Virus record (IMG/VR): IMGVR_UViG_3300037180_000041
Location: 1-39,393 of that record
Direction: 5' to 3' (one strand)
Source: a virus
DNA length: 39,393 nt
Position numbers and translations under genes: made by a program. A model generated the notes under the pieces. That model did no database searches. It was not told the DNA's origin and worked only from the letters and a program-made list of their open reading frames with translations. This document shows, in pieces, positions 838-12,474 of the stretch (position 1 is its first letter; each line of letters starts with the position of its first letter).

Positions 838-1785
838 TCAGGCCCCGGGCCGGCCGGATCCGAACTGGATCCGGGCGACGGCGGGGCGAAGTGAATCAAG
901 CTGCTCCTCGTCGTACCAGCGCTGGGTTTCGACGTTGGAGTGACGCAGCAGGGCTTTCAGCTCGAGCTGGCCGAGGCCCCACGATTTCGCGAGGGTCCCG
1001 ATGGTTTTCCGGAAGCCCGCGATCGTCAGTCCGGTAATTCCGGCCCGCAGACCGGCGGCCTTGACTTCGTCCAGGGCCTTGTACCCCGGCGAGCCGTGCG
1101 TCCACGGTCCGACCAGCTCAACCCCCGGAAATACCCACCGGCAGCCCGTGCGGGGCAGCCAGAGGGCCAGAACCGAAGCCAGATCATCCGCGATCGGAAT
1201 CCGGGCGGCGGATTTTTTCGTCTTCGGCCGGAATGTCCGGCGCGGGGCGATCGTGATCGTGCGGGCGATCAGGTCGACATCGTGAACCATCAGGTTCAGG
1301 GCCTCACCTTTTCTGAGTCCGGTGTAACTGAGCAGGTACACCAGAGCCTGGAGCCGGCCGGCCTTCCAACTGCCGGAGCAGGCCTCGGTATCGAGCAAGG
1401 AAAGCAGCAGACGGACAGACTCGGCGGACTGGTGGCGCGGAACCTGTGGGCGGTCGGGCGCCTGGCAATCGGTCCTGATCCATTGATTAACCCTCCTGTA
1501 AGCAAATGGTGACGTCTTCGTGTAGCCGCTTGCGAGGGCGTAAGAACACGCCGACGAAAACGACCGGAGCAGGCTGGCGGTCCGGGCCGGGGACCGCTCC
1601 GGGCGGGCGGCGATCCAGGCCGCAACCGCTGGCGGTTTCAGGTCCGCAACTGAGCGGACAGACGGCAACTGGGCGAACTCGCGCAGCACTTGCGACATCT
1701 GACGGTAAGTCCCTTGAGCGCGGATCGGCGGTGTGTAAAGCGACAAGACTTCGGCGGAAAAATGGGCGAATGACATCGGACGCAT
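838..1785 (-). CDS. int: Tyrosine recombinase (phage integrase)
   Basis: 315 residues. The N-terminal part (about 1-115) fits a SAM-like core-binding domain; the C-terminal part carries the catalytic residues R158 (in SYTGLRKGE), K190/K191, R259, H282 (in LLRHSN) and nucleophile Y291 (RWYD). The usual His three residues before the second Arg is Ala256, a tolerated but uncommon change. It should integrate and excise the phage at the att core next to it. The ATG at 1785 is preferred to an upstream ATG at 1881 because a GGGAG ribosome site lies eight bases before it and the upstream extension overlaps the previous gene. The attP-like tRNA fragment lies about 180 bases upstream. Confidence 0.92.
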   Translation of the reverse strand: MRPMSFAHFSAEVLSLYTPPIRAQGTYRQMSQVLREFAQLPSVRSVADLKPPAVAAWIAARPERSPARTASLLRSFSSACSYALASGYTKTSPFAYRRVNQWIRTDCQAPDRPQVPRHQSAESVRLLLSLLDTEACSGSWKAGRLQALVYLLSYTGLRKGEALNLMVHDVDLIARTITIAPRRTFRPKTKKSAARIPIADDLASVLALWLPRTGCRWVFPGVELVGPWTHGSPGYKALDEVKAAGLRAGITGLTIAGFRKTIGTLAKSWGLGQLELKALLRHSNVETQRWYDEEQLDSLRPAVARIQFGSGRPGA

Positions 1786-1789
1786 GGTG

Positions 1790-3142
1790 TTACTCCCGTA
1801 GATGTTCGGATACCTCGCGGTACGGACGCACGGGAAGTGTGACACGCGGTAGAGTCGCGGACTTGTAAGCCGCGACTTCATTCACGCCCGTACAGGGACC
1901 GGGCGGTTGTGGGGCCGCCGGCAACCTCGCCGGAACGGTTTTGCGCTCAGTGGGGATTGGACATGGAGTCGCGGACTTCGAATCCGAAGGTTGCAGGTTC
2001 GAATCCTGCCGGGCGCGCTGCTCTTGGGCACTTGGGTTCCCGTTTTCACATGTCGCGTTGGACCCGTCTGACTCGTCGTGTACAATGGTATCTGAGCGCT
2101 CAATAGCCCGGGTCGGCTGTGGGGGGAGTTTGCCGACGCGCCCCACAGCCGGCTTTTTTGCGCCGGTCGCGGGACGGTAATTGAGCTGCTCGCGGAACTC
2201 GCGCCAGGCGTCGCGTTCGGCCTGGGTAGTCGGTTCCGGCTTGGGTGCAGGTGGATTGAAGTTGACCATCGACGGTTTCGGCAACTTGAGTTTCAGGTCG
2301 CCATCGGTCATTTTCCGGATCGTGGCTATGACGTATCCGAAGCTGTCAGGCGTGTAACTGAGCCGGCTCAGTCGATCCAGGGCCACCTCGACCGCCATGA
2401 ATCCCCGGATCGCACCAGCGGCCCGTATATCGGCTATCGTGATTTCGGCGACGGTGCCGAAGATCGCCTGGGCTTGCTCAAGCAGTGCCTCGAGGTACTC
2501 AGCATTCCCAACCGGCTGGCCTGGGATGGCTGCTTGCATTATTGGTTTTGAAGGGGGAGAAAAATCGGTCGCGGTTTTCTCTTCTGATCGATTCTCTCTT
2601 CTCTCTACCTTATAGGGGGTCAAGGGGGTGGAACCCTGGCGCTCCGGTTCGGAACCCGGGCGCGTGTTCCGTGAGCGCTGGCGCTCCTCGTTTGGCGCGG
2701 CCGCGACAACCTTGAAGGTCGCAACCGGCGGTTCGGTCGGCGGCTCGTCGCCGCCATCGCCGGAACCAAACAGACTCGGCTGGCTGTCAATCGACGGCCG
2801 CCTGGCTAGTTTCGGCGCCGGTCCGGCTGGCCGATATCCCGCCGTCGCCTCGAACTGGCGTCCTGAGGGCGCTTCCCCCAGGACCTCATAGCCGGCCTCA
2901 GCTAATCGCTTCAATGAGCGGCAGATCGCCTTCGGGTGGCGGCCGAGATCCCTGGCAATCTCCCATGCCTCCGGGTATCGCCCGGGATGGGTTCGCCGAA
3001 AATTGACACAGTAGCCGTGGACGCGCACGTCCATGTCAGTCACTTTAGGATCGGTCCAAATTGCCTCACTGACGGGGTCCCAGTAGCGTTCTGGGATATC
3101 CGCCGGCCCTCCCCTGTCGGGAAGGCATTGCGCGAATGGCAT
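1790..3142 (-). CDS. Winged-helix replication-initiator-like protein with long unstructured tail
   Basis: 450 residues. Residues about 25-85 (EAWEIARDLGRHPKAICRSL and the following helix) look like a winged helix-turn-helix as in phage replisome organisers and plasmid initiators. A charged, low-complexity linker (about 95-200) follows, then a second folded block around 205-300 (NAEYLEALLEQAQAIFG..., GFMAVEVALDRL) and a conserved-looking WREFREQL near 335. No helicase or polymerase motif is seen. It is the only replication-type gene in the window, so I infer a role in starting replication. The last ~115 residues are read through the tRNA fragment and a plus-strand small RNA, and may be biologically meaningless. 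The ATG at 3142 is the first start after an in-frame TGA; its leader carries the hairpin at 3168-3194. Confidence 0.6.
   Translation of the reverse strand: MPFAQCLPDRGGPADIPERYWDPVSEAIWTDPKVTDMDVRVHGYCVNFRRTHPGRYPEAWEIARDLGRHPKAICRSLKRLAEAGYEVLGEAPSGRQFEATAGYRPAGPAPKLARRPSIDSQPSLFGSGDGGDEPPTEPPVATFKVVAAAPNEERQRSRNTRPGSEPERQGSTPLTPYKVERRENRSEEKTATDFSPPSKPIMQAAIPGQPVGNAEYLEALLEQAQAIFGTVAEITIADIRAAGAIRGFMAVEVALDRLSRLSYTPDSFGYVIATIRKMTDGDLKLKLPKPSMVNFNPPAPKPEPTTQAERDAWREFREQLNYRPATGAKKPAVGRVGKLPPQPTRAIERSDTIVHDESDGSNATCENGNPSAQEQRARQDSNLQPSDSKSATPCPIPTERKTVPARLPAAPQPPGPCTGVNEVAAYKSATLPRVTLPVRPYREVSEHLRE
1852..1978 (+). repeat. 13-bp direct repeat (1852-1864 and 1966-1978) around the att region
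   Basis: GAGTCGCGGACTT occurs at 1852-1864 and again at 1966-1978, 114 bases apart. Both copies sit at the start of a tRNA anticodon-arm-like sequence: the second in the tRNA-Arg(TCG) fragment, the first followed by GTAAGCCGCGA, which would give a TGT-anticodon-like loop. The first copy has no recognisable T arm. It may be a decayed tRNA piece or an integrase-related repeat; chance is not excluded. Confidence 0.35.
1966..2017 (+). other. attP: attP-like core: 3' part of a tRNA-Arg(TCG) gene
   Basis: The sequence has an anticodon arm (stem 1971-1975 with 1983-1987, loop CTTCGAA, anticodon TCG at 1978-1980), a 5-nt variable loop, a perfect T arm (GCAGG, TTCGAAT, CCTGC at 1993-2009) and an acceptor 3' strand CGGGCGC plus G (2010-2017). 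The matching 5' acceptor strand GCGCCCG is absent upstream and the D loop (1949-1965) is too long, so this is not a whole tRNA. A tRNA 3' end next to an integrase gene is the classic attP core that restores the host tRNA upon integration. Only one copy exists in the window, which fits an excised or circular genome. Confidence 0.72.
2058..2086 (+). promoter_or_regulatory. Strong sigma70-type promoter for the small RNA
   Basis: TTGGAC (2058-2063) and TACAAT (2081-2086) are separated by exactly 17 bases. No coding frame follows; transcription from about 2093 runs straight into the terminator hairpin at 2112-2159. The promoter is antisense to the minus-strand replication-type gene. Confidence 0.7.
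2093..2159 (+). ncRNA. Candidate antisense regulatory RNA of about 65 nt
   Basis: Bounded by a good promoter (2058-2086) and an intrinsic terminator. The transcript is mostly one hairpin: a 13-bp stem (2112-2124 with 2141-2153) and a 16-nt terminal loop 2125-2140 reading GGAGTTTGCCGACGCG. The same loop, with one extra T, recurs at 3173-3189 in the DNA that is the leader of the minus-strand gene 1790..3142, so the RNA loop is complementary to a loop in that mRNA leader. The loop contains UUUG, which fits the YUNR U-turn of known antisense loops. The RNA is also fully antisense to the 3' part of the same gene. I infer antisense control of the replication-type gene; transcription is not shown. 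Confidence 0.6.
2112..2159 (+). terminator. Rho-independent terminator of the small RNA
   Basis: A 13-bp stem containing GGCTGTGGGG and CCCCACAGCC (one G-T pair) is followed by six T residues at 2154-2159. It lies inside a minus-strand reading frame, so its only evident use is to end the plus-strand small RNA. Confidence 0.8.
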
Positions 3143-3167
3143 CGCTCATTAGCCCTTTGCGGCAGCC

Positions 3168-3194
3168 GGGGAGGAGTTTTGCCGACGCGACCCC
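3168..3194 (-). promoter_or_regulatory. Leader hairpin of the replication-type gene, target of the small RNA
   Basis: On the minus strand GGGG and CCCC pair around a loop reading CGCGTCGGCAAAACTCC (3189 down to 3173); an outer AGCC/GGCT pairing extends the stem with a six-base bulge. The loop is the complement of the small-RNA loop at 2125-2140 apart from one bulged base. The element ends about 30 bases before the ATG at 3142, close enough to influence ribosome loading. Confidence 0.55.
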
Positions 3195-3243: not shown

Positions 3244-3283
3244 AAAAACGCCCCCGTCACCGCTGTCAGACGGTAACGGGGGC
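3244..3283 (-). terminator. Rho-independent terminator upstream of the replication-type gene
   Basis: On the minus strand GCCCCCGT (3283-3276) pairs with ACGGGGGC (3257-3250), with ACCG/CGGT continuing inside after one mismatch, and TTTTT follows (3248-3244). It ends transcripts from the small-gene cluster 3357-4914 before the leader of 1790..3142, so that gene needs its own promoter or read-through. The region 3143-3243 holds only a weak promoter candidate (TTGATT, short spacer). Confidence 0.75.
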
Positions 3284-3356
3284 TCATCCTGTCGGACCCT
3301 GCCCTCCATCGAGAGCAAGGATAACCTGGCTGACAGACCAGGTCAAGCAGCCCGAA

Positions 3357-9735: not shown

Positions 9736-10431
9736 TCAAGCCCGCTCCAGGATCCGGCGGATCGTGGCGGGCTGCCAGGGGCGCCCCTCTTTCGTTTTGA
9801 TCCCGTGCTCATCCGCCAGCCGGCAGAGATCCCGGAATGTCGCCCCTGTCTGCCGGGCCTCGGACAGGATCCGGATCGCCTCGAGCTCGGTCAGGTTCGG
9901 TACCAGGGTCTTGCCATCGGCAGCCAGGTCGTACCCGAACCGCAGTCGGCCGCACCGCTCCCCGCGCGCGATCTTGCCCTGCAGGGTGTCGCTGGTCCGT
10001 TCTCCGATGATCTCCCGCTCCCATTGACTGACGCTCATCAGGACGTTCAGAACCAGTCTGCCTGACGCCGACCTGGTATCGATCGAGTCGTTCACCGAGA
10101 ACAGGCGGGCACCCCCCTTCTCGGCGAACAGCTCCTCGATCAGCGATGCCCAGTCCCGGATTGACCGGGACAGCCGATCCAGCTTCGAAATGATCATTCC
10201 GTCGGCCCGGCCGTCCCGCAGCTCGGCCAGCACGTATCGGATCCCGGGGCGGTCCAGGTTCTTCCCGGACTGGCCCGGATCGCTCCACAGACCGACCAGG
10301 TCCAACTCGTAAAGGGCACAATACGCACGGATTTTCTCCTCTTGCATGGCGAGACTGGACCCGCCGCGGGCCTGTTCTTCGGTCGAAACCCGCGTGTATC
10401 CGATGACGCGCGGCCTTGTAACACTTGTCAT
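9736..10431 (-). CDS. Serine recombinase (resolvase/invertase family)
   Basis: 231 residues. The N-terminal resolvase domain (about 8-150) has IGYTRVSTEEQ with nucleophile S16, the ISKLDRLSRS motif (82-90) with the catalytic Arg pair, and SVSQWEREIIGERT (133-146). A short recombinase domain with a helix-turn-helix follows (GATFRDLCRLADEHGI, WQPATIRRIL). The long C-terminal part and zinc ribbon of large phage serine integrases are missing, so it is closer to resolvases or invertases. ATG 10431 is chosen because upstream sequence in frame is not protein-like. Its site may be the inverted repeat 10462-10491. Confidence 0.9.
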   Translation of the reverse strand: MTSVTRPRVIGYTRVSTEEQARGGSSLAMQEEKIRAYCALYELDLVGLWSDPGQSGKNLDRPGIRYVLAELRDGRADGMIISKLDRLSRSIRDWASLIEELFAEKGGARLFSVNDSIDTRSASGRLVLNVLMSVSQWEREIIGERTSDTLQGKIARGERCGRLRFGYDLAADGKTLVPNLTELEAIRILSEARQTGATFRDLCRLADEHGIKTKEGRPWQPATIRRILERA

Positions 10432-10461
10432 TGGGTGTATCACATCTGATGGTTGCCGATT

Positions 10462-10491
10462 CTTGTTTGCAAACGACCGTCTGCAAACAAG
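10462..10491. repeat. 10-bp inverted repeat upstream of the serine recombinase
   Basis: CTTGTTTGCA (10462-10471) and TGCAAACAAG (10482-10491) are perfect inverted copies separated by ten bases, about 30 bases before the recombinase start and in the divergent region before the sigma factor gene. It could be the crossover or res-type site of the recombinase or an operator. Confidence 0.6.
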
Positions 10492-10677
10492 CCTATCACC
10501 GCGCGCCGGAAATGCCGGTTTTTCCGCCCGATTCCGGCCGCCGCCGGTCCGGATCTGCCGGACGGTAGGGTTTACCCGATCGTAACGACCGGCAGAATTA
10601 TAATTGTCGGGATTGATGTCCTTTTTTGGCGAAAAGTCCGCATTCTGAAGGTATACGCTGCACCTAGATCCGCACCA

Positions 10678-11187
10678 ATGCCGAGGCCGACGTTGACGGG
10701 GAAAGCCCTGGAGGCGAGAGATGCGCTCATAACCGAGAATAGGGGGCTGGTCGGACTGGCCGTCTCCGGATTCCGCCGGGCACGTATCGACTGGGAAGAT
10801 CTCGAATCGGAAGCCGTTCTGGCTCTGGTTGAGGCGGCCACCCATTACCGATCTGAGCTTGGTCCATTTTCGAGCTATGCGTTGCCACGCATCAGATTCG
10901 CAATCGTACATGCGATTGCCCGCGACTGTTCTCCCGGCAGCGGATCGGATTACGACCTTGACTTGATCCCGGACCGCGACCACGAAGAGCCAGATTACGA
11001 CCGCCTCTGGGAAGCCGTCGATAGACTGCCGGATCGGGCGCGAGCCATCGTGCTCGAGGCGTTCAGCCTGACCGACCGGGACCCGGACCGGGCAGCGATC
11101 GCCAAGCGGAATAAGATCAGCGAAAAGACAGTTACTCGAATCAAGAATCAAGCACTTGAGACGCTGAGAGAATCACTGTCCGCCTGA
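10678..11187 (+). CDS. Phage-encoded sigma-70 family factor
   Basis: 169 residues. Residues about 17-83 (LITENRGLVGLAV, WEDLESEAVLALVEAA, FSSYALPRIRFAI) match region 2 that binds core polymerase and the -10 element; residues about 108-166 (RLPDRARAIVLEAF, ISEKTVTRIKNQALETLRES) match region 4 with its helix-turn-helix. A region 3 linker is short and acidic. It stands just before the rightward late genes, so I infer it directs host RNA polymerase to phage promoters. The ATG at 10678 is the first start giving the conserved N-terminus. The 246-base gap 10432-10677 has the inverted repeat and a palindromic AATTATAATT at 10597-10606. Confidence 0.85.
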   Translation: MPRPTLTGKALEARDALITENRGLVGLAVSGFRRARIDWEDLESEAVLALVEAATHYRSELGPFSSYALPRIRFAIVHAIARDCSPGSGSDYDLDLIPDRDHEEPDYDRLWEAVDRLPDRARAIVLEAFSLTDRDPDRAAIAKRNKISEKTVTRIKNQALETLRESLSA

Positions 11188-11472: not shown

Positions 11473-11662
11473 CGACAAACACGACCTGGCCGGCTGCCTG
11501 CGGGACACCGCCGCCCGCCGGCCGGAAGCGGATCTGCTGGCGGATTTCATTGACCCGGTGGAATATCCGACGGCCGAACAGCTCGAGATGGCGGATCTGG
11601 TCCGGAACTATCTGGACCGGGACCAGCGGGAACTGGAGCGGGAGAAACAGCGGAAGCCATGA
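11447..11662 (+). CDS. Small helical acidic protein
   Basis: 71 residues from a TTG at 11447, overlapping the upstream gene by 26 bases; the start is uncertain. The sequence (DLAGCLRDTAARRPEADLL, AEQLEMADLVRNYLDRDQRE) is helical and acidic. Its stop overlaps the methyltransferase ATG (ATGA), supporting co-translation. Confidence 0.5.
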   Translation: MPPLTLTNNDKHDLAGCLRDTAARRPEADLLADFIDPVEYPTAEQLEMADLVRNYLDRDQRELEREKQRKP

Positions 11663-12474
11663 CAGTCCTGGACCTGTTCAGCGGAATCGGCGGATTCAGT
11701 CTCGGCCTGGAGTCGGTCGGAATGAAGACCGTCGCCTTTTGTGAGCAGGATGGTTATGCCCGACGCGTATTGAAGAAACACTGGCCGGAAACCTGGATTT
11801 ATGAAGACATCCGCACGCTTACCGCGAGACGGCTCAAACAAGACGGGATTAGTCCGATCGACGTCGTCTGCGGCGGCTTCCCGTGTCAGGACATCTCTTG
11901 TGCTGGCAAGGGTGCAGGTATTGAAGGCAGCCGCTCGGGACTCTGGTCGGAAATGCACCGGGTCATCCGCGAGGTCAAGCCGCGTTGGGTTATCGCTGAG
12001 AACGTCCCTGCTCTCCGTTGTCGCGGAGCGGATCGGGTTCTCGGCGACCTGGAAGCAGCAGGCTACGCCGTCTGGCCGGTCATGGTGGGTGCTGTCCATG
12101 CCGGAGCGCCCCACGAGAGAAAGAGGGCGTGGCTGGTGGCCCACCGCACGATCGACGCAGCGGGGAGATTGCCCTTGCGAGAGACGCCGTCAGAATCCCG
12201 ATCTTGCCGCGGTGGTCGGCATGTTCCCCACCCCGCAAAGCCAAGATGCCAAGCACGGCGCGCCAACAGCCTGGGAAATCGCACACCGAAAGCAGTCTCA
12301 CTTGCACAACGTGGTCAATGGCAGGTTGAACCCGATGTGGGTCGAGTGGCTGATGGGGTTCCCGCTCGGGTGGACCGACTGCGCTGCCTCGGCAATGCCG
12401 TCGTCCCGCAAGTCGTCGCGATGATCGGTCAAGCTGTTCTGGAGGCCGATGCATTATGCCAGCCCGCCGCCTAG
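11659..12474 (+). CDS. C5 cytosine DNA methyltransferase with an apparent frameshift in the target-recognition part
   Basis: The frame encodes motif I DLFSGIGGFSLGLE (5-18), motif IV GGFPCQDIS with nucleophile C76, motif VI ENV (115-117), motif VIII-like HERKRAWLVA (152-161) and motif X RLRCLGNAVVPQVV near the end. Between about 12165 and 12370 the read sequence is Arg/Pro-rich and unlike the family, while the +1 frame reads FPTPQSQDAKHG and LNPMWVEWLMGFPLGWTD, which is typical of the target-recognition end of phage Dcm-like enzymes. So one indel near 12150-12210 and a second near 12360-12380 would restore a full enzyme. It may be inactive, decaying, or mis-sequenced. If active it would methylate phage DNA against host restriction. 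Confidence 0.8.
   Translation: MTVLDLFSGIGGFSLGLESVGMKTVAFCEQDGYARRVLKKHWPETWIYEDIRTLTARRLKQDGISPIDVVCGGFPCQDISCAGKGAGIEGSRSGLWSEMHRVIREVKPRWVIAENVPALRCRGADRVLGDLEAAGYAVWPVMVGAVHAGAPHERKRAWLVAHRTIDAAGRLPLRETPSESRSCRGGRHVPHPAKPRCQARRANSLGNRTPKAVSLAQRGQWQVEPDVGRVADGVPARVDRLRCLGNAVVPQVVAMIGQAVLEADALCQPAA

Follow-up and report, generated by a model that had tools for sequence, protein, structure and literature searches.

In plasmid copy control of the R1 CopA/CopT type, fully overlapping cis antisense RNAs make loop-loop contact with the leader of the replication gene. The P4 CI RNA is processed from the leader transcript and controls the replication operon via complementary leader segments, acting by premature transcription termination. 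The c4 RNA is encoded upstream of its target ant and is cut out of a transcript common to both. In P1/P7, the loops of c4 pair around the RBS of the target, which gives immunity specificity (PMC12197685). The par locus of pAD1 (Fst RNA I / RNA II) produces convergent RNAs across direct repeats, in which contact begins at the terminator loop and a second repeat block sequesters the translation start (PMC7472228).

The DNA analysed here (the window) is a 39,393-base virus record. It carries genes for terminase, portal and head proteins, and its closest relatives include phage records and Planctomycetes prophages. In this window a predicted small RNA and the leader of an opposite-strand operon share two blocks of sequence, and we consider it highly likely that a kissing-loop antisense RNA represses the replication operon at translation. 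The features concerned are listed below.

838..1881, minus strand: tyrosine integrase (PHROG integrase, E 7.7e-30; Pfam Phage_integrase, 2.2e-11)
1790..3142, minus strand: target ORF, putative winged-helix replication-type protein (HTH_36, E 0.05, sub-threshold; codon score by window)
1972..2020, plus strand: attP core, the 3' half of tRNA-Arg(TCG) (ARAGORN 1943-2018; identical in the related phage L159, by reading)
2058..2086, plus strand: sigma70-like promoter of the small RNA, by consensus match
2093..2159, plus strand: predicted antisense small RNA of about 67 nt, with promoter and intrinsic terminator (fold -35.9 kcal/mol)
2097..2109, plus strand: 5' tail block, complementary to the RBS region of the target mRNA (12/13 DNA-identical to 3143-3155)
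2110..2155, plus strand: terminator hairpin of the small RNA, with a T6 tail
2125..2140, plus strand: 16-nt loop predicted to pair with the leader loop, sequence GGAGTTTGCCGACGCG
3143..3155, minus strand: RBS block immediately before the ATG, matching the 5' tail of the small RNA
3168..3194, minus strand: leader hairpin with the duplicated loop 3173-3189 (G4/C4 stem 3168-3171/3191-3194)
3250..3283, minus strand: intrinsic-terminator-like hairpin upstream of the leader hairpin
3318..3346, minus strand: candidate promoter of the target transcript, upstream of the terminator-like hairpin (TTGACC-17-TATCCT)

The locus resembles par(pAD1) in its convergent predicted RNAs, its direct repeats and its predicted contact at the terminator loop. 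Unlike in par(pAD1), the phage target is a kilobase-scale replication operon and no short hydrophobic Fst-like toxin is encoded; moreover, the phage terminator loop would meet a separate leader hairpin, and the shared bidirectional terminator is absent. The sequence-only reading had taken the layout as the unusual point. An opposite-strand RNA encoded downstream and the repeats are indeed present, but they have a precedent in par of pAD1 (PMC7472228). As in P1/P7 c4, the phage RNA is predicted to pair at the RBS region of its target; however, the window RNA lies on the opposite strand about 1 kb away with its own promoter and terminator, and its target is a winged-helix-type ORF. The c4 antisense RNA model (Rfam RF01695) did not match, either at the gathering score or with E values up to 5; no Rfam family matched, and the relaxed cut-off gave chance matches only. 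Unlike P4 CI RNA, the window RNA is encoded separately and its predicted pairing covers the RBS, and unlike in CopA/CopT, the complementarity in the phages comes from separate, diverged copies. Thus, the locus is neither a c4 member by Rfam nor a par toxin-antitoxin, and by analogy it would work like both. A short literature search with incomplete coverage found no report of such an arrangement in planctomycete phages.

The small-RNA loop at 2125-2140 (GGAGTTTGCCGACGCG) recurs at 3173-3189 as GGAGTTTTGCCGACGCG, the same word plus one T. By folding, both copies are hairpin loops, one in the small-RNA terminator (-35.9 kcal/mol) and the other in the G4/C4 hairpin, which forms when the 87-nt leader is folded at minimum energy. 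This second copy is 31 nt upstream from the ATG at 3142, and a terminator-like hairpin (3283-3250, minus strand) stands ahead of it. All of this bears out the sequence-only reading, which had described a duplicated loop in two hairpins, a preceding terminator and a target about 30 bases before the start codon. What it had missed is that the repeat extends beyond the loop, with similarity between 2097-2144 and 3143-3193, and includes a second block, CGCTCAATAGCCC (2097-2109) versus CGCTCATTAGCCC (3143-3155), the latter abutting the start codon. None of 200 dinucleotide shuffles of the RNA (0/200) reached the local score of this alignment, and the frequency of a comparable 5' tail block match was 0.00075 in random segments of the record. 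The 16-mer match alone is unremarkable (2 hits versus 0.62 expected at <=3 mismatches), and several unrelated 68-nt window segments have equal or higher self-match scores. What makes the repeat significant is its hairpin context together with the second block and the relatives, not the bare 16-mer. Because the repeat includes the RBS block, the small RNA could pair with both the leader loop and the RBS region, and the complementarities of tail and loop stand in the antiparallel order required for a continuous duplex. The original proposal of kissing-loop control is supported, with one extension: the predicted RNA also covers the RBS, so that more than a loop contact is involved. The promoter of the small RNA can be read as TGGACC-16-TACAAT or TTGGAC-17-TACAAT, ending at 2086, and the 5' end of the RNA (2093) was placed from the promoter position.

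The target ORF, 450 aa in length, is open throughout the small RNA and the tRNA-derived attP. Its coding signal (codon score by window) fades below about 2100, which casts doubt on the 3' part of the ORF where it crosses the RNA and attP; the C terminus as annotated is probably spurious, and its tail RQDSNLQPSDSKSATP is typical of antisense-tRNA translation. A replication role of this ORF is weakly supported, by its position and the sub-threshold HTH_36 match. Sequence searches found no homologue of the protein in phages, viral_contigs or genome_contigs, and a 43% protein match with L159 coincides with the tRNA and RNA stretch and was attributed to conservation of the DNA, not to homology of the proteins. 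In the window (3250-3318, minus strand) and in L159, the terminator-like hairpin between the candidate promoter and the loop hairpin is possibly a further control point.

Besides the tyrosine integrase, the window encodes a second recombinase, a serine recombinase at 9736-11151 with a homologue also in the 71-10 prophage described below. A sigma70-like phage protein lies at 10453-11187 (PHROG RNA polymerase sigma factor, 1.7e-15) and a C5-cytosine DNA methylase gene at 11659-12474 (Pfam DNA_methylase, 9.5e-42). A CI-like repressor, said earlier to be missing from the window, was not recognised in the scan of left-arm ORFs, though as evidence this is weak.

With no homologue of the window target protein detected, terminase, portal and integrase served as the routes to relatives. 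For example, L159 has an integrase 52.7% identical to that of the window and an identical tRNA-Arg attP core, followed by a promoter and a terminator hairpin. Its RNA loop CTTTCCAGAGACG is different from that of the window, and the leader copy CTTTTCCAGAGACG, again with one extra T, is enclosed in a hairpin, 30 nt ahead of the start codon that opens the operon on the opposite strand. Among 157 terminators scanned for a second same-strand copy of the loop at most 8 kb away, those of the window, L159, L212 and L215 came up, plus one weaker spurious pair. A relaxed terminator-loop scan added L211 and G007, and a two-block scan added L246, a prophage in Planctomycetales bacterium 71-10 (contig G012:C75). 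In total, the layout was found in the window and six related planctomycete phages, with loops that differ between phages yet match within each phage. Most other related records examined, many of them fragments, gave no case. No further clear case came from the prophages of a family-wide terminase search or from the portal relatives, in which high scores were due to repeats in coding sequence or to GC-rich noise; a tandem-repeat hit in L229 was discarded. An integrase relative, G006 (IMGVR_UViG_3300047160_011548), bears another tRNA remnant, and its attP flank contains no pair that could be recognised. The ends of that record are mutually inverted copies, likely a fold-back assembly artefact or an IS end.

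Covariation of the loops in relatives was the test set beforehand, and it came out in favour of the proposal: in the six related phages complementarity is kept and the sequences differ, with loop identity itself as the criterion by which the cases were selected. Loop identity between phages is 28-56%. Cognate loop pairing is predicted at -28 to -59 kcal/mol and is always stronger than non-cognate pairing (-9 to -26 kcal/mol); the 7x7 loop duplex matrix is diagonal, as is the 5' tail matrix in 6/7 rows. Judged from their sequences, the complementary loops covary in seven phages as those of kissing-loop antisense RNA repressors do. Although diverged, most of the seven loops still show a core similar to YUUGCCNG, perhaps reflecting shared descent or a structural constraint. 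The YUNR turn pointed out earlier is present in 5/7 loops and not shared by all seven, so the U-turn is not a defining feature, and it was dropped as a shared one.

Because the cases were selected on loops, independent evidence comes from the 5' tail match, the start-codon distance, the hairpin context and the gene context. The 5' tail match was used for selection in the seventh case only. Its frequencies among random segments in the seven phages are 0.00075, 0.007, 0.003, 0.11, 0.022, <0.00025 and 0.010 (combined by Fisher's method, about 5e-10), and the match is weak in L215, at 0.11. The distance from the ATG to the loop block is 26-33 nt in 7/7 phages, with start codons picked by eye. An independent scan for pairs of hairpins sharing a loop word (12-nt seed) placed 6/7 cases at or near the top with scores of 46-65, and the shared word of L211, at 11 nt, is below the seed. 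The maximum was 43.5 in 1.09 Mb of unrelated phages, which were the loci of a 15-nt loop-word scan and were chosen for carrying that word; some GC-rich or tandem-repeat noise in the related set scores 46-50. As a search of the collection, the 15-nt loop word was too common to help. The loop words occur only in the same phage or in overlapping records, except for the window loop, by which the control loci were collected, and short chance hits of the L211 11-mer.

The targets include a DnaB-N/DUF3987 protein in L212, a DnaB-N/DUF3987 protein behind a sigma-like gene, first in the antisense-controlled operon, in L211, and a DUF5906 primase-helicase-type protein in L215. The targets of the window, L159, G007 and L246 have weak winged-helix matches or none. 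Clear primase/helicase-type genes are present in three relatives, and the operon looks replication-type in each related case.

At the other end of the layout, the small RNA starts 63-93 nt after the 3' end of the tRNA core, in tRNA orientation, in 5/7 phages; in G007 and L211, the neighbourhood of the RNA yielded neither an integrase nor a tRNA core. A good promoter match is at the corresponding position in 5/7 phages, and consensus matching across the seven recognised no promoter for the small RNA in L246 and L215. In 71-10 the prophage is integrated: identical 41-nt tRNA-Lys repeats bound it on either side, an integrase homologue sits at the far end, and its antisense RNA (L246 rc 2943-3181) is located some 93 nt past the intact tRNA-Lys gene of the host. 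As no promoter for this RNA could be recognised, it might be supplied by read-through from the tRNA. With the RNA gene 63-93 nt behind the attP tRNA half in the same orientation, integration puts the RNA directly downstream of an intact host tRNA. We suggest only tentatively, and think it rather doubtful, that integration itself switches on the repressor, with read-through from the tRNA promoter supplying the RNA only in lysogens.

Two matching blocks, hairpins, cognate specificity and a conserved layout were computed in seven phages; we infer that both RNAs are made and that their pairing would lower translation. In the proposed mechanism, a predicted short antisense RNA would be transcribed from beside attP and end in a strong terminator hairpin, whose exposed loop would kiss the complementary loop of the operon leader hairpin. 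Pairing would then spread to the 5' tail of the RNA, covering the Shine-Dalgarno region of the first gene and blocking translation. Encoded on the opposite strand at the distal end of the operon, the RNA would work through duplicated segments. Presumably this serves to silence replication in lysogens and to act against superinfecting phage that have the same loop type.

Pairing with the leader could instead act on transcription, by altered folding or early termination, with translation secondary. The target hairpin sits in the 5' leader, a terminator-like hairpin of the window stands between the candidate promoter and the loop hairpin, and L159 has, by reading, a similar hairpin followed by a T-rich tract. 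However, this hairpin is located upstream of the pairing site and not in the interval that separates the site from the gene, it is not evident in all seven phages, and the second complementary block covers the RBS in 7/7 phages (weakest in L215); an action on transcription seems unlikely to us.

The coincidence of the second collinear block with the RBS also bears on whether the repeated words are DNA sites, such as repressor operators, replication iterons or recombination sites, with incidental hairpins. Such sites would suit direct repeats that flank a replication operon near attP, and a serine recombinase is also encoded in the window. Each phage, however, has two copies, each a hairpin loop, one of which always ends in a T-rich tract; the word differs between phages, and in the window and L159 the copies are not DNA-identical, as the leader copy has one T inserted. 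We hold DNA sites to be very improbable. The least probable reading is that the RNA and ORF form a type I toxin-antitoxin for prophage maintenance instead of replication control: the layout and two-site pairing match par of pAD1 (PMC7472228), but the targets are large operons (DnaB-N/DUF3987, DUF5906, winged-helix) and not short hydrophobic peptides.

Translational repression by a kissing-loop antisense RNA would mean that phages of Planctomycetota, a phylum with little-studied phage gene regulation, have a conserved RNA-based control of replication. The loop would be a variable specificity tag, with seven predicted orthogonal RNA-leader pairs from seven phages, and sequence data could serve to sort phages into immunity groups. 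The position of the locus next to attP allows a direct test of how integration is linked to immunity, and if the read-through is true, integration would be coupled to replication shut-off without a protein repressor.
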